From Sphingobium arseniciresistens (GTDB lineage Bacteria > Pseudomonadota > Alphaproteobacteria > Sphingomonadales > Sphingomonadaceae), in NCBI GenBank assembly GCA_029167225.1, contig JARFNK010000005.1, positions 186,001-250,000 of the forward strand: a stretch of DNA of 64,000 nt, read 5' to 3'. How positions within the stretch are numbered: the stretch's first letter is position 1; each line of letters opens with the position of its first letter. The notes under the pieces are model-generated. The model ran no database searches. It saw nothing but the letters and a program-made list of their open reading frames with translations, and had not been told where the DNA came from. Made by a program: the position numbers and the translations under genes. Below are positions 43,739-64,000 of the stretch, in pieces.

Positions 43739-44296
43739 CTATTTGTCGGTGGCGTCAGGAGCACTCTGCGCGCGGGAATAGGTCGCAACTACTCGCGCGC
43801 TTTCTTCATACATACCAGTGAGCATGGTCAGCATCCGAGTCACACTGGATATCTTTGTCGTGAAGTCCGAGAGTTCGTCAATTTGGCTGGAGAGCACTTC
43901 CTTTTTAATGGATACGTACAGGTCAGTGATGCGCTCACCCTCATCGGTTACCTGGTAGTTGATGTTCTTGCTTCCCTTTTCCTTGATACCGGAAATTAGG
44001 TTCATGTTGGCGAGCTTGCGCAGCGAATAATGGATATTGGGAATGTCGTCGCGATTGAGCATTCGCGCGATCCAAGCCGCGCCGGTGGGCATGGCTTGCA
44101 TTCTGATCGTGTGCATAACGCAAAGTTCTGCAAAGTTCAGGTCCACACCCGATGACATGCGCGTGGCTTGGAGCACGAAATGCTCGAACGCTTCCCTGAA
44201 GCGAATCGAAGCGAATTCGAATTCGGTCAGTTCCGCCCCGCCTTCGAGCTGAGCCAGATGCCAAGTGCGGTGATATGTGTCTCTTTCGTCCAGCAT
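43739..44296 (-). CDS. MarR-family winged-helix regulator
   Basis: A 185-residue regulator. The winged-helix core runs from FAELCVMHTIRMQAMPTGAAWIARML to DIPNIHYSLRKLANMNLISG, followed by the wing EKGSKNINYQVTDEGERI and a C-terminal dimerisation helix (SDFTTKISSVTRMLTMLTGM). This longer MarR type is frequent beside aromatic-catabolism genes in sphingomonads. The ATG at 44296 was chosen with AGGAT just upstream; the frame extends further without similarity. It is divergent from the CoA-transferase operon, which it probably controls. Confidence 0.82.
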   Translation of the reverse strand: MLDERDTYHRTWHLAQLEGGAELTEFEFASIRFREAFEHFVLQATRMSSGVDLNFAELCVMHTIRMQAMPTGAAWIARMLNRDDIPNIHYSLRKLANMNLISGIKEKGSKNINYQVTDEGERITDLYVSIKKEVLSSQIDELSDFTTKISSVTRMLTMLTGMYEESARVVATYSRAQSAPDATDK

Positions 44297-44606
44297 ATCC
44301 TGCTTTCTCAGGGGCGCGGGAGCGCGGTCTGGATCCGGCGCAGTGCTTGGACATCGCCCGTGCGAGCGACGAGGCGCGGCACTTGCAACTGCACCGATTT
44401 CTCCGCCACTCTGGCCCAATTCAGGTTTTATATCAACCGATAATCCGTCAATATTCCGGCGGCAAAGGGTGCTTCCGGACAGCCTGAAACGGTCTTCCGA
44501 CGGCCCGTGGGGCCGGTCTGCGCTTCAGCTCTTATTGCGCAACGGGCAAGGCAGCGGTGCCCAACCGGCATTCGACGCGGTCCGCAGAATCGCCGAGTGA
44601 GTGCGG
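44297..44606. other. Divergent regulatory region between MarR and CoA-transferase genes
   Basis: No gene is supported here. A short inverted repeat TATC-AACC-GATA is at 44431-44442, within an AT-rich island that could hold the promoters. The repeat is too short to assign to MarR with confidence. Confidence 0.45.
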
Positions 44607-45848
44607 ATGGAAACTGCCGACGCACAAAACAACTGTCTTTCCCAACCACTCGAAGGACTCAGAGTTCTGGAACTCGGCCATTTCATCGCCGCGCCGTTTT
44701 GCACCCGGTTGCTGGGCGATCTCGGGGCGGACATCGTCAAGGTCGAGCCTCTGGGCGGCGACCCTGTGCGAAAATGGGGCGAGGCGATCGACGGGAACTC
44801 GCTGTGGTGGTCGATCCACGGACGTAACAAGCGCAGCGTGGCGCTTGATTTGAAGCGCGAGGAAGCGCGGGGCATCGTGCTCCGGCTTGTTGAGCAGTGC
44901 GATGTGGTGGTCGAGAATTTTAGGCCCGGCCAGCTTGCGGCGATGGGGCTGGGGGCCGAACATCTGCGTGCGGCCAATCCCGACTTGGTGATCGCGCAGA
45001 TCTCGGGCTTCGGACAGGATGGGCCCTATCGCGATCGCGCCGCCTTCGGCGTGATCGGCGAGGCGGTCGGCGGCCTCAGATATCTGACCAATCACCCGCC
45101 CGGCACGACTGACCTGCCGCCGGTGCGCGTCGGGGTGAGCATCGGGGATTCGATTGCGGGCCTTTACGCTGCGTTCGGGATCATGGTGGCGCTGTGGCGG
45201 CGCGATCGCAGGGGCGGCGACGGCGGCGGACGCACGGTCGATGTCGCGCTGACGGAATCGATCCTCAGCATGATGGAAGGGATGCTCCCCGAATATGGAG
45301 CGCTCGGCAAGATCAAGCAGCCCACCGGCGGTGCGATCGCGACTGCGACGCCATCGAACGCCTATCCGACATCCGAAGGCCAATGGGTGCTGGTCGCGGC
45401 GAATTCCGATCCCCTATTCGCGCGGTTGATGACGCTGCTGGGGCGGCCGGAACTGATCGAGGATATGCGTTATTGCGACAATCCTCAGCGCGTCCGCCAT
45501 GCGAGCGACCTCGATGCCATCATCGGCGGATGGACGCGCCGCCACTCGTCGGATGCGATTATCGCTCAGCTCGAGGCGGCCGATATTCCCTGTTGCAAGG
45601 CCTACACTGCTGCCGATTGCGCCGCAGATCCCCAATATCGCCACCGCGGCATGGTCCGGGAAGTCGAGGATCCGCTTCTGGGGAAAGTCCTGCACACAGG
45701 CATTGTTCCGCATTTGCCCGAAAGTCCGGGCGCGATCCGCTGGGCCGGGCCTTCCATCGGACAGCACACCGACGAGGTACTTGCCGAGTTGGCCGGATTG
45801 ACCGAGCAGGAGCTGGTGTCCCTCAGGCACGCGGGGGTGGTCCGATGA
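44607..45848 (+). CDS. Class III CoA-transferase (CaiB/BaiF family)
   Basis: A 413-residue enzyme that moves CoA between carboxylic acids. It begins GLRVLELGHFIAAPFCTRLL and GDLGADIVKVEPLGGDPVR, with DLKREEARGIVLRL, VVVENFRPGQLAAMGLG and the catalytic aspartate region (G-D-S-I-A-G-L-Y follows RVGVSIGDS) typical of the family. A GTG at 44601 is an alternative start. The gene overlaps the next by four bases. With the lyase and LeuCD-like genes it fits activation of citramalate, mesaconate or a related diacid with succinyl-CoA. Substrate is inferred from context only. Confidence 0.88.
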   Translation: METADAQNNCLSQPLEGLRVLELGHFIAAPFCTRLLGDLGADIVKVEPLGGDPVRKWGEAIDGNSLWWSIHGRNKRSVALDLKREEARGIVLRLVEQCDVVVENFRPGQLAAMGLGAEHLRAANPDLVIAQISGFGQDGPYRDRAAFGVIGEAVGGLRYLTNHPPGTTDLPPVRVGVSIGDSIAGLYAAFGIMVALWRRDRRGGDGGGRTVDVALTESILSMMEGMLPEYGALGKIKQPTGGAIATATPSNAYPTSEGQWVLVAANSDPLFARLMTLLGRPELIEDMRYCDNPQRVRHASDLDAIIGGWTRRHSSDAIIAQLEAADIPCCKAYTAADCAADPQYRHRGMVREVEDPLLGKVLHTGIVPHLPESPGAIRWAGPSIGQHTDEVLAELAGLTEQELVSLRHAGVVR

Positions 45849-46777
45849 TTCGGCTGCCTACCGCCATAGAACTGGTCGAGGTGGGGCCGCGCGACGGGCT
45901 CCAATCGGTACGGGAATTCGTTCCCACGGCCACCAAGATCGAGCTGATCCGGCAACTTTATGACGCCGGCATCCGGCGGATGGAAGTCACGTCCTTCGTC
46001 AGCGAAGCCGCGCTACCCCAGATGGCCGACGCGGCGGAGATCGTTGCCGTGGCAAATGCCCTGGCGGGGCTTGACGCTTGCGCGCTCGTTCCCACGGTTA
46101 GGCATGCGGAGCGTGCGCTGGTAGCCGGCACCCGACATCTTGCATTCGTCCTGTCCGCCTCGGAAGCGCACAACCGCAGCAATGTGCGGCGCAGTCCGCT
46201 GGAATCGGCCGATGAGTTCGCCCGGCTCGTGGAGACGATCCCGGACGGCACCCGGCTGCGTGTCAATGTGGCGACGGCGTTCGACTGTCCGATGACGGGC
46301 AGGGTCGAGGCGGAAACGGTGCTGCAACTGCTGGCGGGATTGATCGAGATCGCCCCCGGCGCCGAACTGGCGCTGTGCGACACGACCGGCCGCGCTTCGC
46401 CCCTGCAGGTCGCGAGCCTGTTCGAGGCGGCCAAGGTTCGCTTTCCTGCGGCCGATCGGTGGGCCTTTCATGGCCATGACACTTATGGCGCCGGTGCCGC
46501 GAACGTCTTCGCCGCGCTGCTGGCAGGGGTGCGCGTGATCGATGCGGCCTGCGCCGGGCTGGGTGGCTGCCCCTTCGCTCCTGGAGCGACCGGCAATGTC
46601 GCCACCGAAGACGTGGTCTGGATGCTCGATGGCATGGGTATCGCGACCGGAATCCGGCTTGCCGATCTGTGTCGCGCAGCCGAGAGGATCGCGCTCGTTC
46701 CAGGCGCGCAGACCGGCGGGCGCGTGCGGATCGCGCTCGCTTCGCGCGCATGCCTGCAACCGGAGCTGACGGCATGA
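45845..46777 (+). CDS. HMG-CoA lyase-family aldolase (candidate citramalyl-CoA lyase)
   Basis: A 310-residue TIM-barrel lyase. Catalytic features of HMG-CoA lyases are present: VGPRDGLQ (Arg16, Asp17), [12 protein letters not shown] (His209, His211), and the cysteine loop [20 protein letters not shown] (Cys242, Asn251). This family also contains (R)-citramalyl-CoA lyases, known from Chloroflexus, which release acetyl-CoA and pyruvate. With a class III CoA-transferase upstream and LeuCD-like subunits downstream, a citramalyl-CoA lyase role is more likely than leucine degradation, which would need isovaleryl- and methylcrotonyl-CoA genes. Both junctions overlap by four bases. Confidence 0.87.
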
Positions 46778-48189
46778 ACGCGCCGCACCCGCGAACGCTC
46801 TACGAGAAGATCTGGGACGATCATGTCGTTGCAGACCTTGGGGAAGGGCTGGCACTGCTCTACGTCGACCTCCACCTCGTCAACGAAGTGACGAGCCCGC
46901 AGGCGTTTTCCGGTCTGCGTGGCGCGGGCCGGAAAGTCCGCCGGCCCGACCGCACCATCGCGGTGGCCGATCACAATGTACCCACGACCGATCGCCTCAT
47001 GGGCATCTCCGACCCGGAGAGCCGGATGCAGGTCGAAGCACTGGAGCGCAATGTTGTGGAATTCGGCGTTCCCTATGTCGACCTGCTCGGCGAGCATCAG
47101 GGGATCGTCCACGTGATCGGCCCGGAACTGGGGCTGACGCTCCCAGGTACGACGATCGTTTGCGGTGACAGCCATACTTCCACTCATGGCGCCTTCGGTG
47201 CGCTCGCGTTCGGGATCGGAACTTCGGAAGTCGAGCACGTTCTGGCGACCCAGGCGCTTCCCCAACAGAAGTCGCGCAGCATGCTGATCCGCGTGGTCGG
47301 AGCGCCGCCTCGAGGCGTCTCGGCCAAGGACATGATCCTGCACATCATCGGCCGGATTGGCACTGCAGGTGCGACGGGCCACGTCATCGAATATGCGGGG
47401 ATGGCGATCGAGGCGCTGGACATGGCCGGGCGCATGACGATCTGCAACATGTCGATAGAAGCCGGCGCCCGGGCGGGACTCGTGGCGCCGGACGACGTGA
47501 CGTTCGCCTATCTCCGGGGCCGGCTACGGGCGCCCAGAGGGTCCGACTTCGAACTGGCGGTTGCCAGGTGGCGGGAACTTCGCAGCGATCCGGGGGCCCG
47601 CTTCGACAAGGTTGTCGAACTGGACGTCTCCGCCATTGCGCCGATGGTGACATGGGGCACCAGCCCCCAGGCAGTCGTCTCCATCGACGGGTGCGCGCCG
47701 GATCCCGCCGGCCTCGCCGATCCGGCTGAGCAGGACCAGGCGCGAGAGATGCTGCGCTACATGGCGCTGGAGCCGGGCCAGGCAGTCCGCGGCATCGCTC
47801 TCGATACGGCCTTCATCGGAAGCTGCACCAATGGTCGGCTCGAAGACCTGCGCGCCGCGGCGGCTGTCCTTAAGGGGCGCAAGGTCGCGCCGGGCATGCG
47901 CGCGCTTGCAGTTCCGGGCTCGACGATGGTCAAGCATCTGGCGGAAGCGGAGGGGCTCGACCGGGTCTTCCTCGATGCCGGTTTCGAATGGCGCGAGGCA
48001 GGCTGTTCGATGTGCCTGGGGATGAACCCTGACAGGCTCGCGCTTGGCGAGCGCTGCGCATCCACTTCGAACCGGAACTTCGAAGGCCGCCAGGGGCCGG
48101 GCGGTCGGACCCATCTGATGTCGCCCGCCATGGTCGCCGCCGCGGCGATCGAAGGCTGCATCGCGGATGCCCGGGAATATCTGCGGTGA
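46774..48189 (+). CDS. Aconitase-family hydro-lyase large subunit (LeuC-like)
   Basis: A 471-residue [4Fe-4S] hydro-lyase subunit. It begins [27 protein letters not shown] as LeuC proteins do. The cluster cysteines are in IGSCTNGR and in [43 protein letters not shown] is typical. LeuC/LeuD-type enzymes include isopropylmalate isomerase, citraconate hydratase, mesaconase and dimethylmaleate hydratase. The catabolic setting favours a methylmaleate/mesaconate hydratase over leucine biosynthesis. It forms a heterodimer with the next gene product. Confidence 0.9.
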
Positions 48190-48809
48190 AGCCGTTCAGC
48201 CGCATCGAAGGGATCGCCGCCCCGCTGCCCATGGCAAATGTCGACACGGACAAGATTCTGCCAGCCAGATATCTCAAGACGACCGAGCGGGAAGGGCTGG
48301 GCCAGGCCCTGTTCGCAAGTTTGCGGTGCGATGCGGATGGTCGCGAGGTGCCCGGCTTCATTCTCAACCGCCAGGAATATCGCGAGGCGCGGATTCTGAT
48401 CGCGCTTGAGAATTTCGGATGCGGATCGAGCCGGGAACATGCGCCTTGGGCGCTGGCGGATTTCGGCATCCGTTGCGTCGTGGCGCCGGGTTTCGCGGAA
48501 ATTTTCTACAATAATTGCATCAAGAACGGGATCCTGCCCGTGGTCCTGCCGCGCGATGAAGTCGACCGATTGCTGGTTCTCGCCGGGGACCCGGCCACCG
48601 CGCGAATGAGCGTGGACCTTGAGCGCCAGATTATTGAAGCGGCGGAAGAACGCTTCGCCTTCGAAATTGAGCCCGGCGCGAAACGACGCCTGCTCGAAGG
48701 GCTGGACGAAATCGTTCTGACACTTGAGCACGAGGGCGAACTCGGCGCGTTCGAAGGGCAGCACGCAAGCCAGCCCTTCCTCTGGCAACGGGTGCCCCTC
48801 AAGCCATGA
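48186..48809 (+). CDS. Aconitase-family hydro-lyase small subunit (LeuD-like)
   Basis: A 207-residue swivel-domain subunit starting at GTG, which overlaps the LeuC-like stop (GTGA). The family motifs are [18 protein letters not shown] near the N-terminus and [16 protein letters not shown] for the substrate-binding loop. [17 protein letters not shown] follows. Length agrees with LeuD. Its 3' end overlaps the convergent LysR gene by 11 bases. The substrate is as discussed for the large subunit. Confidence 0.92.
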
Positions 48810-49797
48810 CCGCCGTACTCGCCTCCGCAAAGAAATCGAGCGCCCTGCGCGCCGCTGCAGACAGCAAGGCAGGCTCGCGATGACACAGCGCCGTATTTCT
48901 TTTTGCCCACGGCTCCTGAAGCCGTACGATGGCGACGTTGCGCCGCGCGCCGGCAGCAAAGGCTTCGGGCAATATCGATATGCCCAGACCCGCCTCGACC
49001 AGCAACAACACGCTCTCGAAGCTTGCCATGTAAGCGCATGGGAGAAACTGCCGCTGCTCCTCGCGGGCGGCTTTTTCGAAGAGCGAGCACAACGCACTGT
49101 TGCGTTGCATGGCGATGAACGGGAAATCGAGGGCATCCCGCAAGGCAAGGCGCTCAATGCTGGCCAGCGGGTGCGAGGGGTGAACGACTGCAACCAGTTC
49201 GTCGCTAATCCATGGGCGCGAACTGAGGCCTGCCATGTCGATCGTGCCGGACACGAAACCCAGATCGGCACGGCCGCCGTGAATGTCGTCGACCACTTCG
49301 GTGCTCGTCCGTTCTTCAATCAGGAGCACGATGTCGGGGGCCCGTTCGCGGAATTCCCGGATCGCCCTCGCCAAGTGGGGAGTGATCGACGACATGTGCG
49401 CATGGATGTGCACGATCCCCGCCGCGCCGTTCTTCAGGGCATCGAACTTGCGCGTGGTTTTCTCGATCGTCGACAAAACATCTTGGGCGCAACCGAGCAG
49501 TTCGAGTCCTTCGGGCGTGGGGCGTACACCCCGGTCGGTTCGGTCGAGCAGCCGCACGCCAAGCCGTGCCTCAAGCGCCGCGATGCGGCGGCTGATCGCC
49601 GAAGGAGTGATGTTTTCGCTCTCGGCCGCGCGGGCCATGTTGCCCTCTGTGACGACAGTAGAAAACAGCTTCAGCGTAACGAGATCAAAAGTGCGGGTCG
49701 TAAGTCCAGGAAAGAGCCCATGCCCGGCTTGGCAGCGGCTCTCTTGGGGTGGGCTCACGATCTCCTTGTTCGCTCCACCAGCACATTGATCCGTCAC
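48799..49797 (-). CDS. LysR-family transcriptional regulator
   Basis: A 332-residue activator-type regulator. The N-terminal winged helix is VTLKLFSTVVTEGNMARAAE and then ENITPSAISRRIAALEARLGVRLLDRTDRGVRPT. The effector-binding domain follows, with ISDELVAVVHPSHPLAS and SVLLLVEAGLGISILPE. The start was set at GTG 49797, preceded by AGGAG; a GTG at 49815 is possible. It is divergent from the TonB-dependent receptor and probably responds to a pathway intermediate. An unusually long stretch of about 35 residues lies before the helix-turn-helix. Confidence 0.88.
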   Translation of the reverse strand: MTDQCAGGANKEIVSPPQESRCQAGHGLFPGLTTRTFDLVTLKLFSTVVTEGNMARAAESENITPSAISRRIAALEARLGVRLLDRTDRGVRPTPEGLELLGCAQDVLSTIEKTTRKFDALKNGAAGIVHIHAHMSSITPHLARAIREFRERAPDIVLLIEERTSTEVVDDIHGGRADLGFVSGTIDMAGLSSRPWISDELVAVVHPSHPLASIERLALRDALDFPFIAMQRNSALCSLFEKAAREEQRQFLPCAYMASFESVLLLVEAGLGISILPEAFAAGARRNVAIVRLQEPWAKRNTALCHREPALLSAAARRALDFFAEASTAVMA

Positions 49798-49913
49798 TGC
49801 GTGACTCCTTTGCACATGTTCAGATCAGAATGCGGGCGGCATTCCGTAGGTGGTAAGAAACGGCTTTTTCGCTTGCCTCGCACCCGAAGCGGTAAATTCC
49901 AAATGCATCAAAT

Positions 49914-49934
49914 ATACATCGATCTTGTATCGAT
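49914..49934. promoter_or_regulatory. Candidate regulator-binding site between LysR and receptor genes
   Basis: ATACATCGAT (49914-49923) is followed by CTTGT and a second ATCGAT (49929-49934), giving ATCGAT-N5-ATCGAT. The 10-mer ATACATCGAT recurs in inverted form at 55549-55558 before the hydrolase operon. Shared control by one regulator is inferred. Confidence 0.45.
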
Positions 49935-50073: not shown

Positions 50074-52512
50074 ATGATCAAGAAGTCCACAATCCGTTCG
50101 CTATGCTGCGGAACGGCCTTTGTTCTTTCGGCATTGCCGTTCGCCGCAAATCAAGCTTTGGCCCAAGATGTGCCAGCAAGCGATCAGCAGGCAGGCAGCC
50201 AACCTGCCAGCGATTTCGGGCAGGAAATTGTCGTTACTGCGAACAAGCGTGAGCAGTCGATCAACAAAGTCGGCTTGGCCATTACGGCACTGAGTGGTGA
50301 CGATCTAAAGTCGCAGGGCGTGGTATCGCTTGGAGATCTGGCAAACGCTGTCCCAGGCTTGAGCTTTACGCCTTCGGCCACACAGACTCCTGTCTTTACT
50401 GTGCGCGGCGTCGGCTTTTATGAAAGCTCGCTCGCTGCTTATCCGACTACAAGTGTCTATATGGACCAGGTGCCGCTGGCATTTCCGGCCTTGAGCACGC
50501 ACGCTAATTTCGACATTGAACGCGTCGAGGTTATAAAGGGGCCACAAGGCACATTATTCGGCCAGAATTCCACCGGTGGCGCAATCAACTTCATTGCCGC
50601 CAAGCCGACTTCGAGTTTTGAGGCAGGCGGTGACATCACCGTTGGGCGCTTCAATCGCGCCGAAGGCACTGCCTATGTCAGTGGTCCTCTTTCAGACACG
50701 GTCCGAGCGCGGATCGCGGTGACCGGAGCGCGGGCGGACGACTGGCAGAAGAGCTACACGCGCGCCGATACGCTGGGCGAGGTCGGCTATTATGGCGGTC
50801 GCATCATCATCGATTGGAGGCCCAGTGATATCGTTGATTTCGAGTTGAATCTGAACGGCTGGCGCGACAAGAGCGATCCGCAGGCACCCCAGTATCAGAC
50901 GCTTCTGTCGCAATTTTCTCCGGGTACTGATCCGGCACTTGTCGCCTATCCGTTTGCGCCCTTCCAGCCACGTGCAGCGGACTGGACTCCGTCGACCCGT
51001 CCCCACGCCAACAACAGGCTGTACCAAGGCTCTTTGCGGGGCAACTGGGAGATCGCGGACGGCGTTGTGCTGACCTCGATTAGCTCATATGTCGATTATC
51101 GACCGGACCAAGGGTTCGAGTCCGACGGAACCGCGCTGGCGAACGATGACTTCTTTATTGACCGAGGTTACATCAAGTCATTTAATCAAGAACTCCGGCT
51201 TGCCAATGATGGTGGAGCACCTTTTCGCTGGGTGGTCGGCGCAAACTATGAAAAGAGCCATGTTTACGAATATCAGCTGCAAGACTTTGGAACGCTGAGT
51301 ACCGTTCCGCTCTTTGGCTACACCGGTGCCTATGTCTACTCCGATCAGCACATGCGGAATTACGCGTTTTTCGCGAATTTGGAATATGATCTTGGGAGCG
51401 AAGTCACCGTCAAGGCCGGCGCTCGTTACACGAATGCCCGGCGTAATGCTGCAGTTTGCACCGGAGATCCTGGCGATGGCTCTTTCTCAGCCGCATTCGA
51501 AGAGTTGGCCAATGCGATCCAGCTTGGCTTCTTTCCGGTCGATGGTTTCACGCCTACAGGCATCCCAGTTCCGCCTATAGGTGCTGGCTGCGGGCCGCTG
51601 GACAATACAACGCTTGACGGAACTCCGGCGACCTATCTTCCAGGCGAGTTTAGGGGAACGCTTAGCGAAGATAACATCTCGTGGCGGGCAGGCATCGATT
51701 ACAAACCGTTTGATGGTCTCCTGGTTTATGCGAACGTCACGAAGGGATACAAAGCGGGCAGTTATCCGTTGGCTTCGGGTGCGACTTTCGAGCAGTTCCT
51801 CCCGGTTACTCAGGAATCGCTACTCTCGATCGAAGGTGGTTTCAAGTTCCGGACTGACGACCGGATATTGCAGATCAGCGGCGCTGGCTTCTATTACGAC
51901 TACCAGGACAAGCAGCTGCGTTCTAAGATCGTCGATCCGATCTTCGGTATCCTCGATGCGCTTACCAACGTTCCGAAATCGCGCATGTTCGGTGTCGAAC
52001 TGGATGCCACGCTCGCCCCGATCCCGGGCCTTTCGATTACCGCGTCGGGCAGCTACCTCGATAGCAAAATCACGAAATTTGTCGGTCCGAATACCGCAGG
52101 GATCGATACGGACTATTCGGGCTCGGTCATTCCATACACGCCAAAATTTCAAGCCCGGATTGCTGCGGAGTACAGATGGCGCACGGGTAATGCGGAGCCC
52201 TTCGTGGGCGTGGTCTTTTCGACTCGCAGCAAAGCCCTGGCGAATATCGGCGGCGACAAGGGCCTGGTGCTGACGCCAGACTTCGCCTCTTCGGTTCCTC
52301 CGTCGGATACCTATACGATCGACGGCTATTCGACGGTCGATGCTCGCATCGGCGCCTCATTCAACGATGGCAGGTACACAGTGACGCTGTTCGGCAAGAA
52401 CATCTTCAACAAATACTACGTCACCAACATTTTCACCAATTACGACACGATTAGTCGCTACGCAGCGCCCCCGGCGACCTACGGGGTGACGCTGGCATTC
52501 AAGTTCGACTGA
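50074..52512 (+). CDS. TonB-dependent outer-membrane receptor
   Basis: An 812-residue outer-membrane transporter. A signal peptide (about 1-30, ending NQALAQDV) precedes a TonB-box region EIVVTANKREQSINKVGLAI and a plug with VERVEVIKGPQGTLFGQNSTGG-like sequence (here IERVEVIKGPQGTLFGQN). The barrel ends YGVTLAFKFD. GGGAG is upstream of the ATG. Codons are AT-richer than in the genes around it, suggesting separate origin. It is divergent from LysR and upstream of the molybdenum hydroxylase genes, so it probably imports the parent aromatic compound. Confidence 0.92.
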   Translation: MIKKSTIRSLCCGTAFVLSALPFAANQALAQDVPASDQQAGSQPASDFGQEIVVTANKREQSINKVGLAITALSGDDLKSQGVVSLGDLANAVPGLSFTPSATQTPVFTVRGVGFYESSLAAYPTTSVYMDQVPLAFPALSTHANFDIERVEVIKGPQGTLFGQNSTGGAINFIAAKPTSSFEAGGDITVGRFNRAEGTAYVSGPLSDTVRARIAVTGARADDWQKSYTRADTLGEVGYYGGRIIIDWRPSDIVDFELNLNGWRDKSDPQAPQYQTLLSQFSPGTDPALVAYPFAPFQPRAADWTPSTRPHANNRLYQGSLRGNWEIADGVVLTSISSYVDYRPDQGFESDGTALANDDFFIDRGYIKSFNQELRLANDGGAPFRWVVGANYEKSHVYEYQLQDFGTLSTVPLFGYTGAYVYSDQHMRNYAFFANLEYDLGSEVTVKAGARYTNARRNAAVCTGDPGDGSFSAAFEELANAIQLGFFPVDGFTPTGIPVPPIGAGCGPLDNTTLDGTPATYLPGEFRGTLSEDNISWRAGIDYKPFDGLLVYANVTKGYKAGSYPLASGATFEQFLPVTQESLLSIEGGFKFRTDDRILQISGAGFYYDYQDKQLRSKIVDPIFGILDALTNVPKSRMFGVELDATLAPIPGLSITASGSYLDSKITKFVGPNTAGIDTDYSGSVIPYTPKFQARIAAEYRWRTGNAEPFVGVVFSTRSKALANIGGDKGLVLTPDFASSVPPSDTYTIDGYSTVDARIGASFNDGRYTVTLFGKNIFNKYYVTNIFTNYDTISRYAAPPATYGVTLAFKFD

Positions 52513-55522: not shown

Positions 55523-55562
55523 GATAATACATTGACGATCAATCGATAATCGATGTATTATC
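55523..55562. promoter_or_regulatory. Long inverted repeat before the ring-cleavage operon
   Basis: GATAATACAT (55523-55532) and ATGTATTATC (55553-55562) are a perfect 10-bp inverted repeat with 20 bases between. ATCGATGTAT at 55549-55558 is the inverse of the motif at 49914. A further palindrome CGATTAATCG lies at 55580-55589. This fits an operator for a dimeric regulator, but the protein is not known. Confidence 0.55.
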
Positions 55563-55642
55563 TTGGCGAATCGTTTTTACGATTAATCGAAGCTCAAAAT
55601 CGTGCTGCGCGGCGCCTTGGCGTTGAAGCGCTTGGAGGAACA

Positions 55643-56524: not shown

Positions 56525-56549
56525 CCAGCTTTGAGAAGGAGAACGAAAG

Positions 56550-57884
56550 ATGACTGACAAGACCCCTGTCCGCCGCGTGAGCCGCATCAACGTCGCCAGT
56601 GACCGGCGTACGAATGACGAGCGCACGCAGAGCCAGTACCAGCCTTACAAGGACGCGGCCTGGGGCTTCGTCAATCACTGGTATCCCGCGCTGTTCAGCG
56701 AAGAGCTGCCCGAAGACGGCGTTGAGGGTGTCCAGATCTGCGGCGTGCAGATCCTGCTGCGACGCACCAAATTGGGGGTGAAGGCGATCAAGGATCGGTG
56801 CCTGCATCGCGGGGTCCGCCTGTCGGCCAAGCCGACTTGCTTCAACGAGCGAACGATCACCTGCTGGTATCACGGCTTCACCTTCGATCTCGACGACGGG
56901 AAGCTCACCACAATCGTGGGCAATCCGGAAGATCCGCTGATCGGCACCACGGGCCTGACGACTTATCCGGTTCAGGAAGTTGCGGGCATGATCTTCGTCT
57001 TCGTGCGAGAAGACGATTTCCCCGACGAGGACGTGCCTCCGCTGGCACATGATCTGCCGGTTCGCTTCCCGCAAAGTTCGGAACGTTTCCCGCATCCACT
57101 CTGGCCGGCGGCGCCGAGCCTACTGGACGAAGGCGCCGTGTGCCTGGGCATCCACCGCACCGGCGAGGCCGACTGGCGGCTCGCTTGCGAGAACGGTTTC
57201 GATAACGCCCATATCCTCGTCCACAAGGACGCTTCCTACATCCATGTGCAGAACTGGATTCTCCCGCTCGGCCTGCGGCCGATGGGCGACGACTGCATCG
57301 CGCCGATCGAGGATGAGGATGGCCCCAAGGGGCTGATGCAGTGGCTGTTCACCGACAAGTGGGAGCCGATTGTCGAGAACAAGGAACTGGGAATCAAGGT
57401 TTCGGGCCTCAATGGCCATTTCTACCGCACGTCAGTGGTGCTGCCCGGCGTGCTGATGGTCGAGAACTGGCCCGACGAGCATGTCTGCCAGCTCGAATGG
57501 TACGTACCGATTACCGACGGCACCTACGAATATTGGGAAGTGCTCGTGCGGGTATGCAAGACGGATGAGGAGCGCGAGGCGTTCCGTTACCGTTTCGAGC
57601 GGGTCTACAAGCCGTTGTGCCTCGAAGGGTTCAACGACGCGGACGTTTACGCGCGCGAAGCGATGCAGGAATTCTATGCAGACGGCACCGGCTGGGATGA
57701 AGAGCAGCTGGTGGCTACCGATGTTTCGCCGATCACCTGGCGCAAGCTCGCCTCGCGCCACAATCGGGGCATCGCGAAGCCGGGGCGGGGCGTGGAAGGT
57801 GCAACGAAGACCTCCAGCATCCGCATGCGGCGGCTCGCCCAGGGCAAGAAGCCGGGCTATTTCGTCGAGAAGATCAGAGGCTAG
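56550..57884 (+). CDS. Rieske non-heme iron oxygenase, CarAa/OMO-like terminal subunit
   Basis: A 444-residue ring-hydroxylating oxygenase. The Rieske ligands are Cys84 and His86 (CLHRG), Cys105 and His108 (CWYHG). The mononuclear iron site has His221 and His225 in GFDNAHILVHKD, with bridging Asp218, and an aspartate in FNDAD (363 or 365). Strong similarity along the length to carbazole 1,9a-dioxygenase CarAa is visible, e.g. NHWYPALFS near the start and LEGFNDADVYAREAMQEFYA near the end. 2-oxoquinoline 8-monooxygenase is the other known relative. The protein has about 35 extra N-terminal and about 35 extra C-terminal residues compared with CarAa. Substrate unknown. Confidence 0.9.
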   Translation: MTDKTPVRRVSRINVASDRRTNDERTQSQYQPYKDAAWGFVNHWYPALFSEELPEDGVEGVQICGVQILLRRTKLGVKAIKDRCLHRGVRLSAKPTCFNERTITCWYHGFTFDLDDGKLTTIVGNPEDPLIGTTGLTTYPVQEVAGMIFVFVREDDFPDEDVPPLAHDLPVRFPQSSERFPHPLWPAAPSLLDEGAVCLGIHRTGEADWRLACENGFDNAHILVHKDASYIHVQNWILPLGLRPMGDDCIAPIEDEDGPKGLMQWLFTDKWEPIVENKELGIKVSGLNGHFYRTSVVLPGVLMVENWPDEHVCQLEWYVPITDGTYEYWEVLVRVCKTDEEREAFRYRFERVYKPLCLEGFNDADVYAREAMQEFYADGTGWDEEQLVATDVSPITWRKLASRHNRGIAKPGRGVEGATKTSSIRMRRLAQGKKPGYFVEKIRG

Positions 57885-57886
57885 TC

Positions 57887-58915
57887 GTGGGCATCGCCGA
57901 ATGTCCCCACCCCAGCGTCTGGCTATCCTTCAGCGACGGCAGCAAGGTCAGCTTGCCGGTTGAACCCGGCGAGACTGTGCTGGACGCTGCGCTGAAGGCG
58001 GGTGCGCCCGTCCTCTACCAATGCCGCAGCGGGGCCTGCTCCACCTGCGTCGCCCAGCTCGTGGAAGGCAGCGCGGAGATGCAGAGCGGCACTTCGAGCG
58101 CCCTGCTCCAATCCGAAGTCGCCGAGGGGCAAAGGCTGCTTTGCCGCACGCAGGTGAGCGCAGACTGCGGTTTCTCGCTCGGCTATGACAGCACCGCGGG
58201 CAGCGGCAAGCCGCGCAAGGTTCTTGCCTTTATCGATGCGGTCGAGCGGATCGCCGAAGACGCGGTGCGGCTCGTGCTGGAACTGGCCGAAGGGGAAAAC
58301 CTCCCCTTCAAGTCGGGGCAGTATGTGCAGGTGACGGTGCCCGGCACCGATCAGAAGCGTAGCTATTCGATCGCCAGCCCGCCATCGGCCCTGCCGCGCC
58401 TTGAAATGCTGATCCGGCTTCTGCCGGGTGGGGTAATGTCGTCGTGGCTGACCGGCGCGGCCAAGCGCGACGACGTGCTGGAGATCGAAGGCGCGTTCGG
58501 TTCGTTCTTCCTGGCCGAGAAGGACCCGCGTCCGCACGTGATGGTGGCTGGCGGCACCGGTCTCGCTCCGATGATGGCGATGATCGACACGATCCGCGAA
58601 CGGCCGGGGCGAAAGCCGCCCATCCTTCTGAGTTTCGGCTGCGCGAGTGAACGGGGGCTGTTCTTCCGGGAAGCGATCGAATTGCGAGAATTCTGGCTTC
58701 CTAGCCTCGATGCGCGGATTTCCATCGAGCGCGGCGAGCCAGGCGAAGGTGTGCACATGGGTAATCCGGTCGAAGCGCTCGACGCGGTGGATCCTGCCAG
58801 CGTCGCTTATCTGTGTGGGCCGGCCGGTCTGATCGAGGCGGCGCGCGTTCGGCTCGAGAGCTTCGGTGTGAGCCCGGAAAACATTCACTCGGAACAATTC
58901 GTAGCAAGCGAATAG
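57887..58915 (+). CDS. Ferredoxin-type oxygenase reductase ([2Fe-2S]-FAD-NADH)
   Basis: A 342-residue class IB-type reductase that passes electrons from NADH to the Rieske oxygenase. The N-terminal plant-ferredoxin cluster has Cys46, Cys51, Cys54 and Cys86 (QCRSGACSTCVAQL...LLCRTQ). FAD binding is seen in KRSYSIASPPS and NADH binding in VAGGTGLAPMMAMI, ending with YLCGPAGLIEAA. It starts at GTG directly after the oxygenase stop. A separate ferredoxin is not encoded, so the system should have two components, unlike three-component CarA. Confidence 0.92.
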   Translation: MGIAECPHPSVWLSFSDGSKVSLPVEPGETVLDAALKAGAPVLYQCRSGACSTCVAQLVEGSAEMQSGTSSALLQSEVAEGQRLLCRTQVSADCGFSLGYDSTAGSGKPRKVLAFIDAVERIAEDAVRLVLELAEGENLPFKSGQYVQVTVPGTDQKRSYSIASPPSALPRLEMLIRLLPGGVMSSWLTGAAKRDDVLEIEGAFGSFFLAEKDPRPHVMVAGGTGLAPMMAMIDTIRERPGRKPPILLSFGCASERGLFFREAIELREFWLPSLDARISIERGEPGEGVHMGNPVEALDAVDPASVAYLCGPAGLIEAARVRLESFGVSPENIHSEQFVASE

Positions 58916-58931
58916 CAGCAGGAGAGCGGGC

Positions 58932-59804
58932 ATGGCCGTCAGCAATTTGGGATATCTTGCCTTTGACGTTAGCAATCTGGAGCGGTGGCAGGTTCTGCTC
59001 GAGGAGGTGTTTGGCCTCGAGCCGGTCCTCGGTCCGTCATCCGACGCGCTCCACTTCCGGATGGATGCCCATCACCACCGGATTTCGCTTTATTGCTCCG
59101 CGGAGGACAGCGTTCGCGCGCTGGGCTGGGAAGTGAAGACGCTGGAAGGGTTAGAAGCGCTCGCTGGGCGCCTGACCGATCTGGGAATTCCCGCCGAGCC
59201 CGGTAGTTCAGCTTTGTGTTCTGAGCGGAAAGTCAAGGCGCTCTTCAGCTACATCGATCCCTATCTGCAGCAGCGGTGCGAGATCTTCTACGGTCCGCTC
59301 GTCACTAATACGGCCTTTGCTCCGCGTAACGGCATGAGCGGGTTCAAGACAGGCGACATGGGCCTGGGCCACCTCGCCTATTGGGTTGAGGACATGCAGG
59401 AGGCCGAGAAGTTCTATCGGGACGTGATGGGCTTCAGCATCTCCGATTACATCGCTTGGGACGATAACGATGCCGTGTTCATGCACTGCAACCGCCGGCA
59501 CCACACGCTGGCCCTGATTGCGGAGGCGCCCGACCGACCGGCCGGCACCCTGATGCACATCATGCTCGAAGCCAATTCGATCGACGATGTCGGCTATGCC
59601 TACGATCGCATCCGCGACCTGCGGTTCCCGGTGAAGCTCGAGCCGGGCAAGCACTCCAACGATCACATGCATGGCTTCTACATCGAATCCCCCTCGGGCT
59701 TCTGGCTCGAATTCGGCACCGAGGCACGGGAGATCGATGAGCATTGGGAGGTCAAGACCTATGACGCCCCGATGCTCTGGGGGCATCGCCCGGGTAGCGC
59801 GTGA
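58932..59804 (+). CDS. BphC-type extradiol ring-cleavage dioxygenase
   Basis: A 290-residue type I extradiol dioxygenase with two vicinal-oxygen-chelate modules. The Fe(II) ligands are His147 (GLGHLAYWV), His209 (LMHIMLEA) and Glu260 (FWLEFGTEA), in the same places as in 2,3-dihydroxybiphenyl 1,2-dioxygenase (His146, His210, Glu260). The active-site His241 and Tyr250 and the CNRRHHTLAL segment are also conserved. It would open a catechol ring next to a hydroxyl. The bicyclic-preferring BphC type fits a fused or biaryl intermediate. Confidence 0.92.
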   Translation: MAVSNLGYLAFDVSNLERWQVLLEEVFGLEPVLGPSSDALHFRMDAHHHRISLYCSAEDSVRALGWEVKTLEGLEALAGRLTDLGIPAEPGSSALCSERKVKALFSYIDPYLQQRCEIFYGPLVTNTAFAPRNGMSGFKTGDMGLGHLAYWVEDMQEAEKFYRDVMGFSISDYIAWDDNDAVFMHCNRRHHTLALIAEAPDRPAGTLMHIMLEANSIDDVGYAYDRIRDLRFPVKLEPGKHSNDHMHGFYIESPSGFWLEFGTEAREIDEHWEVKTYDAPMLWGHRPGSA

Positions 59805-60991
59805 CCGTGTCCACGCCAAAGCCGACATTCACAGAGATCGCCGCGCGCGACCGGCTCATCCGGGGCTGGGCGCATCTTTCGCCGCAGCAGCCCGAGCGGC
59901 ACGGCCCGCTCGAAGGAGTGACGGTCGGCGTCAAGGACGTGATCGACGTAGCCGGCATGCCGACTACGCATGGTTCGCCGGTATTCCGGGACAATATCGC
60001 ATCATACGATGCGGAGGCGGTGCGGCGGTTGCGCGCGGCAGGTGCGGTGATCCTGGGCAAGACGGTGACCGCCGAATTCGCGGCCTATTCCCCGGGCCCC
60101 ACCGTCAATCCGCGCGATCCCGCCCGCACGCCTGGGGGATCATCGAGCGGCTCCGCGGCGGTCATCGCGGACGGCCAGGCCGATCTGGCGCTGGGTACGC
60201 AGACGGCAGGATCGATCATCCGTCCGGCGAGCTATTGCGGTGTACTGGGCTTCAAGCCCAGCTTCGGACGCTACCCGCTTGAAGGCGTGCTCACGACCGC
60301 GCCGAGCCTCGACACGCTCGGGCTTTTCGCCCGTTCCCTCGATCTGCTGATCGCGGCCGACGCGGTGTTGTCAGACGAAGCGGCGTTGCCGCCGGCCGCA
60401 AAACATCCGGTGATCGGCCTGTGTCGAAGCCCGGCCTGGCCGCTGGCCGAAGAAAACATGCGGCAGGCCCTGTTCAATTTTGCCGACCGCCTTCGGATGG
60501 CAGGCTTCACCGTGATCGAGCATGAGCTTCCCGCAGCAATCGGCGGGGTGGCCGAGGCGCAAAAGCTGATCCATCGGCGCGAAGCTTGGATTGAGTTCGG
60601 GAAGGTTCGACAGGAGTACCCCGATCTCGTCAGCGATGTTTTTCGCGATTTCATTGACGCCGGAGCGGCCGATACGCCGGAGGCCTATCGCGCTGCGCTT
60701 GCCTTACAGCGGGATTGCGTCGCGTTGCTGCCGCAGCTGTTTTCCTCGGTCGACCTACTGTTGGTTCCGGCGGCCATCGGCGTCGCCCCGCTGGGCCTTG
60801 GTGCGACCGGCGATCCCGCGTTCCAGCGGATATGGACCGCGCTCGGCGTCCCCTGCCTCGCCTTTCCGGCCCGCTGGACGAACGGGGGGCTGCCGCTGGG
60901 GTTGCAACTCATCGGGTTGCGGGGCGACGACCGCCAGCTTCTCGCGAACGCAGCCACCATCCTGGCGCAAACATCATTAGCGGAGGCCTGA
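59801..60991 (+). CDS. Amidase-signature-family hydrolase
   Basis: A 396-residue amidase with the Ser-cisSer-Lys mechanism. Lys45 is in VTVGVKDVIDVAG, the serine-rich loop is TPGGSSSGSAA (114-118) and the nucleophile is Ser138 in TQTAGSIIRPAS. The family acts on aryl or alkyl amides, including lactam-type bonds. The start is GTG, overlapping the dioxygenase stop (GTGA). Within the operon it could open an amide or lactam formed from the nitrogen heterocycle. It lacks a signal peptide. Confidence 0.9.
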   Translation: MTVSTPKPTFTEIAARDRLIRGWAHLSPQQPERHGPLEGVTVGVKDVIDVAGMPTTHGSPVFRDNIASYDAEAVRRLRAAGAVILGKTVTAEFAAYSPGPTVNPRDPARTPGGSSSGSAAVIADGQADLALGTQTAGSIIRPASYCGVLGFKPSFGRYPLEGVLTTAPSLDTLGLFARSLDLLIAADAVLSDEAALPPAAKHPVIGLCRSPAWPLAEENMRQALFNFADRLRMAGFTVIEHELPAAIGGVAEAQKLIHRREAWIEFGKVRQEYPDLVSDVFRDFIDAGAADTPEAYRAALALQRDCVALLPQLFSSVDLLLVPAAIGVAPLGLGATGDPAFQRIWTALGVPCLAFPARWTNGGLPLGLQLIGLRGDDRQLLANAATILAQTSLAEA

Positions 60992-62320
60992 ATGGCAACG
61001 AACGGAGAATTTGCCGGTCTCGGCGATGTCCAGCTCGAGGCTTACGCGCGGGCCTGCGCGAAGATCGATCCTGAACGAATCAAGCAACTTCTATTCGACC
61101 TCACTGACCTCCATTCGCCGACAGGCGACACCGGCGCCATCGTCGATTTCCTGGACTCCCGCCTCAAGAAGATTGGCCTGCGCACGCGGATCGACCGCAT
61201 GTCCGAAATCTCGGGCAATGTGCTGGGCGAACGCAGAGGCTCCGGTGGAGGAGCTTCGCTTCTGCTCTATTCGCCGATCGATACACATTTGGAAGCTGAC
61301 GAGCGAGATCGTCCTTGGGCGGGCGAGGAAGATTTCGTCGATCTGAAGCCGAAGGCCCGGATGGTGGACGATTGGGTCTACGGTCTCGGGTCCTCGAATC
61401 CTAAGGCCATGATCGCCAGCATGCTGGAAGTGGCGGCGGTGCTGATCGAAGCGGATGTGCCGATCCTCGGTGATCTCATGGTCGGCCTGTGCGACGGCGG
61501 CATGCCCACGACCATCCCCGAGCGGAACAATGCCGGCATGAGCAACGGCCTTCAGCATTTGCTGCATCGTGGCATGGCGCCGGACTTTGCGGTCATCATG
61601 AAACCGTGGAACTGGGTCTTCAACGAAGAGCCTGGGATGGGGTGGTTCAAGGTGCGGATCAAAGGCACGCTTGGCTATGCGGGAATTCCGCGCGGCGTCC
61701 CCGGTTTCCGCAGTTCGATCCTGCCGGCCGCGACGATGATCCCGGAGCTTGAGCAATGGATCATCGACTATGCCGAGCGCAACCGCTCGGGAAACGTCTA
61801 TCCGCATGGCTGGATTTCCGGTGTCCGGGCGGGCTGGCCCGAAAAGCCGGCCTTCCCGAGCGCCGAGACCGAGCTGTGGTTCGATGTCAGGATCAGCCCG
61901 CGGACCACGCCGGCCGACGTCAAGGCGCAGTTCGCGCAATTCATGGCCGGCTTCAATGCCCGCCATCCCGAAATCGAAACCGACTGGGAAATGTATGGTT
62001 CGGTTCCAGGTGGAACCACCGATCCGGAAAACTGGATCATCAAATCGGCGCTGCGCAGCTGGGAACATGTCGAAGGCCGGCCTCATGGCGTGCCCGATCC
62101 GTTGGGCGGGCAGACCGACGGGGCGGCGTTGCGCCGTCTCGGCATCCCGACTGCTCGGATCGGCTGGACTTGGCCGGCAGAGAACTCGCCCGAACCAGTT
62201 TCGGAAGGGTTGGGGGGAATGGGCGCGACCTATATCCCCGATCTCCTGCCCTGCATCCGCAAGATCCTGCTGTGCAGCATCGACACGCTCACGCGCGAGC
62301 GCGCCGCCGTGGGGCTGTGA
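60992..62320 (+). CDS. M20-family-like protein with non-canonical metal site
   Basis: A 442-residue protein with the M20 peptidase/deacylase layout, including a central dimerisation domain (KVRIKGTLGYAGIPRGVPGF). The usual zinc ligands are changed. Where M20 enzymes have GHxD, this protein has SPIDTH (94-99), so the order is reversed. The bridging Asp position is Asn136 in GLGSSNPKA. The DEE catalytic pair is DGG (168-170). The later Glu is Lys204. It may have lost hydrolase activity or use a different site. It follows the amidase, which suggests a joint role in nitrogen-substrate opening. Confidence 0.75.
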   Translation: MATNGEFAGLGDVQLEAYARACAKIDPERIKQLLFDLTDLHSPTGDTGAIVDFLDSRLKKIGLRTRIDRMSEISGNVLGERRGSGGGASLLLYSPIDTHLEADERDRPWAGEEDFVDLKPKARMVDDWVYGLGSSNPKAMIASMLEVAAVLIEADVPILGDLMVGLCDGGMPTTIPERNNAGMSNGLQHLLHRGMAPDFAVIMKPWNWVFNEEPGMGWFKVRIKGTLGYAGIPRGVPGFRSSILPAATMIPELEQWIIDYAERNRSGNVYPHGWISGVRAGWPEKPAFPSAETELWFDVRISPRTTPADVKAQFAQFMAGFNARHPEIETDWEMYGSVPGGTTDPENWIIKSALRSWEHVEGRPHGVPDPLGGQTDGAALRRLGIPTARIGWTWPAENSPEPVSEGLGGMGATYIPDLLPCIRKILLCSIDTLTRERAAVGL

Positions 62321-62419
62321 ATTAATACAATCGCAGTTCGATCTCCCGGAAGCCAAGTGACGAAGTAGTCTCGAGCAAATGGACTGGGCGTTCGTCCCCG
62401 GAACCGTAAGGAAATACCC

Positions 62420-63211
62420 ATGCCGCACAAAGATAGTAGCAATCCCGAACAACTTGCCGCGCGCTTGCGCCACGCCTATTCGGGCGGCGCGGTTGCGCCG
62501 CTGCGCGACGGCCTGGACCCCGGCGACGGCGTAAGCGCCTATCGCGTTCAGGATATCAATACGCGCCATTGGGTCGAGCAGGGCCGCCGCATCGTCGGCC
62601 GCAAGATCGGACTCACCGCCAAGGCCGTACAGGCGCAGCTCGGCGTCGACCAACCTGATTATGGCGTGTTGTTCGCGGATATGGAAGTCGCCGACGGCGG
62701 CGTGCTTTCCATTTCTCGGACTCTTCAGCCCAAGGCGGAAGCCGAGGTCGCGCTCATTCTGAAATCGGACATCACTGCGTCCGATCCGGGCCGGGGAGAT
62801 GTGCTGGGCGCGGCCGATTGCGCGGTTGCCGCGATCGAGATCGTCGACAGCCGTATCTCCGACTGGAAGATCGGCTTCGCCGATACGGTGGCCGATAACG
62901 GTTCGTCCGCCTTTTTCGTCCTGGGCAAGGAACGCAAGGCTCTCGACGGGCTCGACCTGTTCACTTGTGGCATGGTGTTGGAACTCAATGGCGAGATTGC
63001 CTCGCTCGGCGCGGGCGCTGCGTGCCTGGGCCATCCGCTCGATGCGGCGGCATGGCTGGCAAAGGTCATGGTCGCCAACGGCACGCCGCTGCGCGCGGGC
63101 GACATCGTGCTGACAGGAGCTCTCGGCCCGATGGTGCCGGTTACGCGCAACGATCGCGTCACCGCGACGATCGGTGGTCTGGGTTCGGTTTCGTTCTCGG
63201 TGGGAGCCTGA
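62420..63211 (+). CDS. mhpD: 2-oxopent-4-enoate hydratase (2-hydroxypentadienoate hydratase)
   Basis: A 263-residue enzyme of the fumarylacetoacetate-hydrolase superfamily. It adds water to 2-hydroxypenta-2,4-dienoate to give 4-hydroxy-2-oxovalerate. Motifs include GRKIGLTAKAVQAQLGVDQPDYGVLFADM, KAEAEVALIL and AIEIVDSRISDWKIGFADTVADN, typical of MhpD/BphH. The two acidic clusters bind the divalent metal. The gene follows the M20-like gene by 99 bases and precedes acetaldehyde dehydrogenase by three bases. The aldolase that should act between them is not yet seen and is likely just beyond the window. Confidence 0.93.
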   Translation: MPHKDSSNPEQLAARLRHAYSGGAVAPLRDGLDPGDGVSAYRVQDINTRHWVEQGRRIVGRKIGLTAKAVQAQLGVDQPDYGVLFADMEVADGGVLSISRTLQPKAEAEVALILKSDITASDPGRGDVLGAADCAVAAIEIVDSRISDWKIGFADTVADNGSSAFFVLGKERKALDGLDLFTCGMVLELNGEIASLGAGAACLGHPLDAAAWLAKVMVANGTPLRAGDIVLTGALGPMVPVTRNDRVTATIGGLGSVSFSVGA

Positions 63212-63214
63212 GCA

Positions 63215-64000
63215 ATGGCGAAAGTGAAGGTGGCGATCATCGGATCGGGCAACATCGGGACCGACCTGATGATCAAGGTGATGCGTCTGTCTGATGTGCT
63301 GGAAATGGGCGTGATGGTGGGGATCGACCCGGCCTCCGACGGCCTTGCCCGGGCTAGCCGCATGGGCGTTGCTACCACGCACGAAGGGATCGACGGGCTG
63401 ATCGCCATGCCCGAGTTTGCGGACGTCGAAATCGTGTTCGACGCCACCAGCGCGGGCGCGCACAAGCGCAACAGCGAACTTGTGCTCGCCGCCGGCAAGC
63501 GGATGATCGACCTCACCCCGGCCGCGATCGGGCCCTATGTGATCCCGCCGGTCAACGGCGAGACCTGCCTCGATGCCAAGAACGTCAACATGGTGACCTG
63601 CGGCGGCCAGGCGACGATCCCGATCGTCGCGGCGGTCAACCGCGTGTCCAAGGTATTTTATGGCGAGATCGTCGCCTCGATCGCATCGAAGAGCGCCGGC
63701 CCCGGCACCCGGGCCAACATCGACGAGTTCACCGAAACCACTTCGCAGGCGATCATGGACGTCGGCGGGGCGACGCGCGGCAAGGCGATCATCGTGCTCA
63801 ATCCGGCCGAACCGCCGCTGATCATGCGCGACACCGTCTATTGCCTGTGCGACGATGCCGACCAGGACGCGATCCGCAAGTCGGTGCACGACATGGTTGC
63901 CGAAGTGCAGAGCTATGTCCCTGGCTACCGGCTCAAGCAAGCGGTGCAGTTCGAGCATATCGGCTCCAACCGCCCGCTGCGCATCCCGGAAATGGACGGC
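63215..64000 (+). CDS. mhpF: Acetaldehyde dehydrogenase (acylating), 3' end cut off by window edge
   Basis: The first 262 codons of an acylating acetaldehyde dehydrogenase, which turns acetaldehyde into acetyl-CoA. The N-terminus [20 protein letters not shown] holds the Rossmann motif. The nucleophile cysteine is in [36 protein letters not shown] and [17 protein letters not shown] are typical of MhpF/BphJ. The partner aldolase (MhpE/BphI) normally follows and forms a channel complex with it, so it is expected to the right of the window. Only the N-terminal part is visible. Confidence 0.93.

Follow-up and report, generated by a model that had tools for sequence, protein, structure and literature searches.

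A candidate catabolic island for a quinoline-type compound, built around an OxoO-type oxygenase, in Sphingobium arseniciresistens

The gene island described here occupies positions 43739 to 64000 of a 64,000-nucleotide stretch of a Sphingobium arseniciresistens contig (JARFNK010000005.1; the whole stretch is hereafter the window), and with a probability of roughly 65% we read it as a horizontally acquired island for the degradation of quinoline or a simple alkylquinoline. The 8-hydroxycoumarin pathway of quinoline degradation in Pseudomonas putida 86 (Qor, OxoO/OxoR, XenA) has, like the window, an OxoO-type oxygenase with an adjacent reductase, as well as a pentadienoate hydratase, an aldolase and an acetaldehyde dehydrogenase; clusters that encode the quinoline 2-oxidoreductase QorSL additionally share the window's receptor type and neighbourhood. 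XenA reduces 8-hydroxycoumarin in quinoline degradation (PMC5519977). The window departs from this pathway in that a two-subunit molybdenum (Mo) enzyme of the IorAB/aldehyde dehydrogenase (ALDH) type, with a twin-arginine N-terminus, is encoded instead of Qor, that a BphC-type extradiol dioxygenase and a hydrolase stand in place of coumarin reduction, and that it includes a gene for an M20-fold protein, a near-constant partner of OxoO.

Three further systems invite comparison. The carbazole 1,9a-dioxygenase pathway (CarAa) likewise has an oxygenase of the PF11723 type, an extradiol enzyme and a meta-cleavage hydrolase; however, the two oxygenases are only about 40-41% identical, and the extradiol enzyme is of the CarB type in the carbazole pathway and of the BphC type in the window. 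Isoquinoline 1-oxidoreductase, IorAB, resembles the window's Mo enzyme in its two subunits, with a twin-arginine Mo large subunit, a [2Fe-2S]2 small subunit and no flavin adenine dinucleotide (FAD) subunit, a likeness at the level of architecture. In iorAB the small-subunit gene comes first, whereas in the window the large-subunit gene does, and the best solved relative of the window enzyme is an aldehyde dehydrogenase. Lumichrome degradation (LumJ, LumA-D, LumE) also combines Mo hydroxylation, Rieske attack on a benzo-fused N-heterocycle and extradiol cleavage, but its Rieske enzyme comprises alpha and beta subunits, a ferredoxin and a reductase, and its substrate is a quinoxalinedione (PMC12746152).

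Gene content and the OxoO-type oxygenase

The closest solved relative of the window oxygenase is OxoO (PDB 1z01; 792 bits over residues 2-443, with 318 of 442 positions identical, or 72%), which we take to be the enzyme of P. putida 86 and which bears the PDB molecule name 8-monooxygenase. The Rieske motif (C84-x-H86/C105-xx-H108) and the 2-His iron site (H221-x3-H225) are conserved with 1z01, and by sequence the window oxygenase is of the OxoO, or 2-oxo-1,2-dihydroquinoline 8-monooxygenase, type. An initial annotation of this DNA had described it as CarAa/2-oxoquinoline-monooxygenase-like; the latter half of that description stands, and the CarAa assignment was dropped, identity to CarAa-type plasmid records being 39.6-41.2% as against 72% to OxoO.

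Relatives of OxoO were sought by scanning one genome per species across 84,980 species; 207 were confirmed and the best 80 kept. All counts of loci given below refer to these best 80 of 207 and to the flanks examined, some of which end at contig ends, and homologue counts vary with the coverage and identity rule applied. An oxygenase tree with 86 rows groups the 1z01 enzyme with Pseudomonas sequences. The window enzyme and a second copy, encoded on contig C53 of this genome, fall among rows from uncultured Gammaproteobacteria and, at a wider level, from sphingomonads (Shimodaira-Hasegawa-like approximate likelihood ratio test, SH-aLRT, 91-93). The oxoO of locus L036, whose contig is titled as a Klebsiella pneumoniae metagenome-assembled genome (MAG), also lies among uncultured gammaproteobacterial sequences, and the title is probably wrong. 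Homologues of the window's alpha/beta hydrolase (at least 60% identity) occur in 17 of the 80 loci and homologues of its MarR regulator in 31, the window MarR being 34-45% identical to that of many oxoO operons.

Pfam and NCBIfam scans of the window's open reading frames (ORFs) yielded the gene classes listed here for 43739-64000, preceded by the tRNA gene at the island's edge. They include, each in its place, all classes that the initial annotation had named, from the TonB receptor to the acetaldehyde dehydrogenase; the 5-nitroanthranilate-aminohydrolase-like M20 gene had been overlooked.

42729-42803, plus strand: tRNA-Gly(GCC), abutting the island (ARAGORN)
43739-44419, minus strand: MarR-type regulator (PF13463)
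44601-45848, plus strand: coenzyme A (CoA)-transferase family III (PF02515; solved relatives include succinate-hydroxymethylglutarate CoA-transferase)
45845-46777, plus strand: hydroxymethylglutaryl-CoA-lyase-like enzyme (NF004283, 277 bits, cut-off 246)
46774-48189, plus strand: LeuC-like hydratase large subunit (NF004016/TIGR00170, above cut-off)
48186-48809, plus strand: LeuD-like hydratase small subunit (NF002458/TIGR00171, above cut-off)
48799-49815, minus strand: LysR-type regulator (PF00126/PF03466)
50074-52512, plus strand: TonB-dependent receptor (domain scan; 70-77% identity to receptors adjoining five QorSL-OxoO clusters)
52684-54864, plus strand: Mo-hydroxylase large subunit, IorB/ALDH type (MoCoBD domains; best solved relative 8gy3_C; twin-arginine N-terminus)
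54917-55381, plus strand: [2Fe-2S]2 small subunit, IorA type (PF01799/PF00111)
55553-56524, plus strand: alpha/beta hydrolase, meta-cleavage-product-hydrolase-like (HsaD/BphD-like, score below cut-off)
56550-57884, plus strand: OxoO-type Rieske oxygenase (PF11723; PDB 1z01)
57887-58915, plus strand: NADH:ferredoxin-type reductase in the OxoR position (Fer2/FAD/NAD domains)
58932-59804, plus strand: BphC-type extradiol dioxygenase (PF22632/PF00903; TIGR03213, 272 bits, cut-off 366)
59801-60991, plus strand: amidase-signature hydrolase (PF01425)
60992-62320, plus strand: M20-fold, 5-nitroanthranilate-aminohydrolase-like protein (closest solved sequence and fold; three canonical metal-site residues replaced)
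62420-63211, plus strand: 2-hydroxypenta-2,4-dienoate hydratase (PF01557; MhpD/DmpE-like, below cut-offs)
63215 to window-equivalent 64156, past the window end, plus strand: acetylating acetaldehyde dehydrogenase (PF09290)

The island is a real, well-formed catabolic gene set. From the TonB receptor (50074) through the 4-hydroxy-2-oxovalerate aldolase, which follows the acetaldehyde dehydrogenase just beyond the window, the genes form one co-directional run with short gaps or overlaps, and a motif check found GESLGG in the hydrolase, GVGE in the Mo subunit and two sets of [2Fe-2S] motifs. Contig C53 carries a copy of this run in identical order (TonB-IorB-IorA-hydrolase-oxoO-reductase-bphC-amidase-M20-hydratase-acetaldehyde dehydrogenase-aldolase) at 58-91% protein identity, the TonB match spanning 623 of 812 residues. 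Because the same order persists in so diverged a copy, the grouping in the window is not a matter of chance. Homologues of the CoA-transferase, LeuC and LeuD were not found on this 34 kb contig.

Variation of the first step and of the lower branch

IorAB enzymes are defined by two subunits, the lack of a FAD subunit and twin-arginine export. The window Mo enzyme fits this architecture, with two subunits, no FAD subunit encoded by those window genes that were scanned and a large subunit that begins with a twin-arginine-type N-terminus (SRRGLL, recognised by eye). A QorL-type large subunit with its FAD subunit is not what we found; the match to quinoline 2-oxidoreductase (1t3q_B) is partial and reaches only 62 bits. 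"IorAB-type", the term used by the initial annotation, is an architectural label only: it holds for the two-subunit organisation and not for the closest solved relative, the aldehyde dehydrogenase 8gy3. That annotation had named two outcomes that would speak against it, of which kinship of the Mo enzyme with aldehyde dehydrogenases is seen here, whereas the oxygenase sides with OxoO and not with a non-heterocycle oxygenase. In the Mo-subunit phylogeny, the nearest OxoO-linked relative belongs to locus L061, which is too distant to say more.

In two alphaproteobacterial MAGs (L041 and L076), QorSL adjoins a TonB receptor of the window type (73% and 70% identity, respectively), and these genes diverge from a run of alpha/beta hydrolase, oxoO, reductase, bphC and amidase resembling that of the window; in L076 the amidase is followed by M20, hydratase, acetaldehyde dehydrogenase and aldolase, and L041 ends within the amidase. 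Loci L055, L138 and L139 have the order TonB-QorSL-MarR-oxoO-reductase-M20-ADH-cupin (ADH, alcohol dehydrogenase), and the Mo gene of L138, from the same genus as the window, is a QorL (1058 bits over its full length). Among the 80 loci, QorL lies near oxoO in three (L041, L055 and L076) and an IorB-type gene (40-43% identity) in two (L061 and L068). The search for this gene order in other genomes, which the initial annotation had suggested, thus recovered nearly the same oxoO gene set and receptor type with genuine QorSL. The Mo slot, occupied by QorSL or by the IorAB/ALDH type, appears to have been exchanged around a constant core, which is the strongest, though positional, support for quinoline; a quinoline-type substrate is favoured.

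The lower branch differs among loci as well. A zinc-ADH gene is present in 39 of the 80 loci, all 39 of which also have a cupin gene, and a window-type BphC is present in 20 (at least 42% identity; 21 at a threshold of at least 40%). The window-type BphC and the ADH and cupin pair occur together in none of the 80, and neither occurs in 21, several of which end at contig ends; the hypergeometric probability of this exclusion is 8e-8, ignoring shared ancestry. The window operon has no ADH and cupin genes, and BphC is found in their stead. In 7-hydroxycoumarin degradation, the double bond of the coumarin is reduced by the ADH-type HcdE, next to whose gene the cupin-like HcdF is encoded (PMC7913881). 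Because HcdE and HcdF are ADH-type and cupin-like, we infer that the loci with both genes would follow a reductive 8-hydroxycoumarin branch, a likeness at the level of protein families; the window would represent a different branch, in which BphC and an alpha/beta hydrolase act on the catechol without prior reduction. The view that each known pathway draws on only some of the window's genes is borne out, in that Qor is replaced, the ADH and cupin genes seen in many OxoO loci are missing, and BphC is present instead.

Other gene types were also counted. A LigB-type dioxygenase occurs in 11 of the 80 loci, five of which have the ADH and cupin pair. The idea of a maleate isomerase was abandoned: no maleate isomerase model matched, an Asp/Glu-racemase relative, present in 36 loci, accompanies the ADH and cupin genes as well (13 loci), and neither this relative nor an Amdase-family gene, present in five loci, turned up in the surroundings of the window operon.

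The M20-fold partner of OxoO

The M20 gene lies no more than 10 kb from oxoO in 65 of the 80 loci (64 at 70% coverage), and 11 of the 15 loci without it have flanks that end at a contig end. By genome, it was found in 77 of the 80 OxoO genomes, whereas a sample of 397 other genomes contained it in no case, and the reductase gene is within 400 bp of it in 48 of 64 loci. Both by sequence and by fold, the closest solved relative of its product is 5-nitroanthranilate aminohydrolase, an enzyme of hydrolytic aromatic amine removal, with which it shares the fold at 22% identity in the structural alignment; the structure comparison bears only on the families in its structure list. D97 and N136 are common to both proteins. 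Because many polar residues, including D97, N136, K138, K204, E212, E213, D298, R300 and D376, are invariant down to 35% identity, the M20 protein is probably no dead scaffold.

In those parts of two reports that we consulted (PMC9029321, PMC11945285), the nitrogen-freeing step of quinoline breakdown has no gene assigned to it or is attributed to a dioxygenase. We tentatively suggest, as a possibility that we would ourselves hold rather improbable, that the M20-like protein may release the nitrogen in the quinoline/8-hydroxycoumarin route. It would then be an offshoot of the aromatic-amine hydrolases that works without metal, replacing the ring nitrogen of the OxoO product by hydroxyl through nucleophilic aromatic substitution, and would accompany OxoO almost invariably across Proteobacteria.

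In three other loci (L141, L142 and L143, from two genomes of the same genus and one of the same family), an M20 relative of about 35% identity adjoins a Rieske gene (about 28% to OxoO) and two alpha/beta hydrolases. These groups, located at about 7-11 kb (L141, L143) or 9-13 kb (L142), possibly represent a sister pathway for another N-heterocycle.

Proposed pathway, alternatives and island context

In the pathway that we propose, the substrate would be taken up through the TonB-dependent receptor, and the Tat-exported IorAB/ALDH-type Mo enzyme, to judge by its position in place of QorSL, would hydroxylate C2 to give 2-oxo-1,2-dihydroquinoline. OxoO and its reductase, by homology, would convert this to 8-hydroxy-2-oxoquinoline. 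The M20/aminohydrolase-like protein, probably with the amidase, might then open the lactam and release ammonia, giving 8-hydroxycoumarin/(Z)-2,3-dihydroxycinnamate. BphC would cleave the unreduced catechol and the alpha/beta hydrolase would yield a cis C4 diacid and 2-hydroxypentadienoate, a step replacing the presumed coumarin reduction by ADH and cupin of other OxoO loci. Hydratase, aldolase and acetaldehyde dehydrogenase are predicted, again by homology, to lead to pyruvate and acetyl-CoA. The window pathway is most likely a rearranged version of the known quinoline route, with the Mo enzyme in Qor's place and direct cleavage by BphC.

The adjacent CoA-transferase, lyase and LeuCD operon (44601-48809) might dispose of the diacid: we speculate that the LeuCD-like proteins hydrate maleate, or citraconate from a methylquinoline. 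The CoA-transferase and the hydroxymethylglutaryl-CoA-lyase-like enzyme of this operon could complete the breakdown of citramalate. The MarR gene adjoining this operon resembles the MarR of oxoO operons. When 43 OxoO genomes were searched for LeuC, 40 had a homologue, in most cases with about 60% identity, as expected for ordinary LeuC; CoA-transferase relatives (41-52%) lie near oxoO in four of the 80 loci, with no lyase or LeuCD match in the DNA there. A weaker four-gene set (31-48%) is found together at L125 in genome G407, which also holds L046.

A number of observations weigh against this reading. The best solved relative of the Mo large subunit is the aldehyde dehydrogenase large subunit 8gy3 (236 bits), and the Mo-subunit tree contains no characterised N-heterocycle hydroxylase. 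Because a Mo hydroxylase of either type sought (QorL or IorB) was found in only five of the 80 loci, leaving 75 with neither in their flanks, the usual substrate of the OxoO module may enter as a lactam, or may not be quinoline. BphC, although its iron-ligand motifs (GHLA/LMHIM/LEFGT) are present, scores below the TIGR03213 cut-off, for which reason we call it BphC-like only, and the hydrolase also falls under its curated cut-offs. Shared ancestry confounds the exclusion between ADH and BphC, and the division into two branches is not clean: 23 loci have BphC enzymes of two further types, in 11 cases alongside the ADH and cupin pair, and the LigB enzyme is present within the flanks of only five of the 39 ADH loci. 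In the M20 protein, P95, G170 and K204, invariant in 40 aligned sequences, stand opposite the H, E and E of the aminohydrolase, which we take to be the M20 metal ligands, and an Ala aligns with aminohydrolase Arg289 (R289A is named in the title of 5k8p). Because these residues are replaced, the M20 protein either functions without the usual metal or is no hydrolase. The only genome seen with all four genes of the LeuCD operon at 58-71% identity is a Rhizorhabdus (L119), where they lie together, but on a contig other than that of its oxoO.

Among the alternatives, OxoO might act as an angular dioxygenase that attacks C8 and C8a like CarAa, after which the hemiaminal would open spontaneously to 2,3-dihydroxycinnamamide and the amidase would free ammonia before or after ring cleavage, leaving the M20 protein an accessory. 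An amidase is indeed part of the operon, and the window oxygenase has PF11723, a domain of CarAa and OxoO alike. Lumichrome breakdown (PMC12746152) provides a precedent, in which a Mo hydroxylase is followed by Rieske ring-opening of an N-aryl lactam and the resulting catechol is cut by an extradiol enzyme. We nevertheless find this route unlikely, given that the characterised OxoO is named an 8-monooxygenase and that the near-universal pairing of OxoO with M20 (77 of 80) would be left without a role.

It is likewise doubtful that a different benzo-fused N-lactam or its parent compound, of the oxindole/indole or natural quinolone type, serves as substrate, with the OxoO family serving environmental bacteria as a general N-aryl-lactam oxygenase. 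The abundance of OxoO relatives (207 confirmed) is compatible with such a role, as is a styrene-monooxygenase-like gene in ten of the 80 loci, none of which showed a QorL. However, the close relatives of the window gene set in L041 and L076 carry QorSL, and a search of the 40 kb around the window operon (40001 to equivalent 80000) gave no homologue of the styrene-monooxygenase-like gene. In the ten loci (L038, L039, L042, L045, L049, L062, L067, L094, L096 and L103), this gene would offer an alternative first step; several of them also contain genes for a flavin reductase, AraC or a FadL-type porin. A tricyclic scheme, in which phenanthridine is converted to phenanthridinone, dioxygenated angularly and cleaved by BphC to phthalamate, from which the amidase yields phthalate, would on chemical reasoning employ every gene that the initial annotation listed, including the amidase. 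We consider it very improbable: the oxygenase is OxoO rather than CarAa, quinoline 2-oxidoreductase accompanies a closely similar gene set elsewhere, no phthalate genes were found among the ORFs scanned, which were not every ORF, and the M20 gene would go unexplained. Overall, the view of the locus as a catabolic island for a fused-ring N-heteroaromatic compound is well supported, the evidence pointing to a quinoline-type substrate, and nothing was found in support of phenanthridine, acridine, isoquinoline or a natural alkaloid.

The borders of the island bear on its origin. G+C content falls to 0.569 at 42-44 kb of the window, and the genes upstream of the tRNA-Gly have housekeeping-like N-termini (by eye; 41637-42689 was the part scanned). 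To the right of the aldolase, a full-length pyruvate carboxylase gene (window-equivalent 65218-68664) and a LysR gene separate the catabolic operon from a set of conjugation genes (TrbI, CagX, VirB8, TrbL, a TrbE/VirB4-like ATPase and a T2SSE ATPase). About 23-31 kb past the window end, genes for a TraG-type coupling protein, a DUF3363 protein and a RepA-like protein follow. Contig C66 gave no tyrosine-recombinase (PF00589) match, serine integrases not having been sought; a repeat of the tRNA end was looked for and none was found, and the far end of the island was not located on the contig. The conjugation genes to the right, together with the tRNA-Gly at the edge, suggest a horizontally acquired integrative conjugative element.

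Quinolines are common toxic pollutants from coal tar. Our comparisons suggest that, in their degradation, both the first enzyme (Qor or an exported IorAB-type enzyme) and the lower branch (ADH and cupin or a window-type BphC) are apparently exchangeable around a near-constant core of OxoO, reductase and M20 protein. The M20 gene, which 77 of the 80 OxoO genomes carry and whose product is related to an aromatic-amine hydrolase, opens the nitrogen-release step to direct testing.

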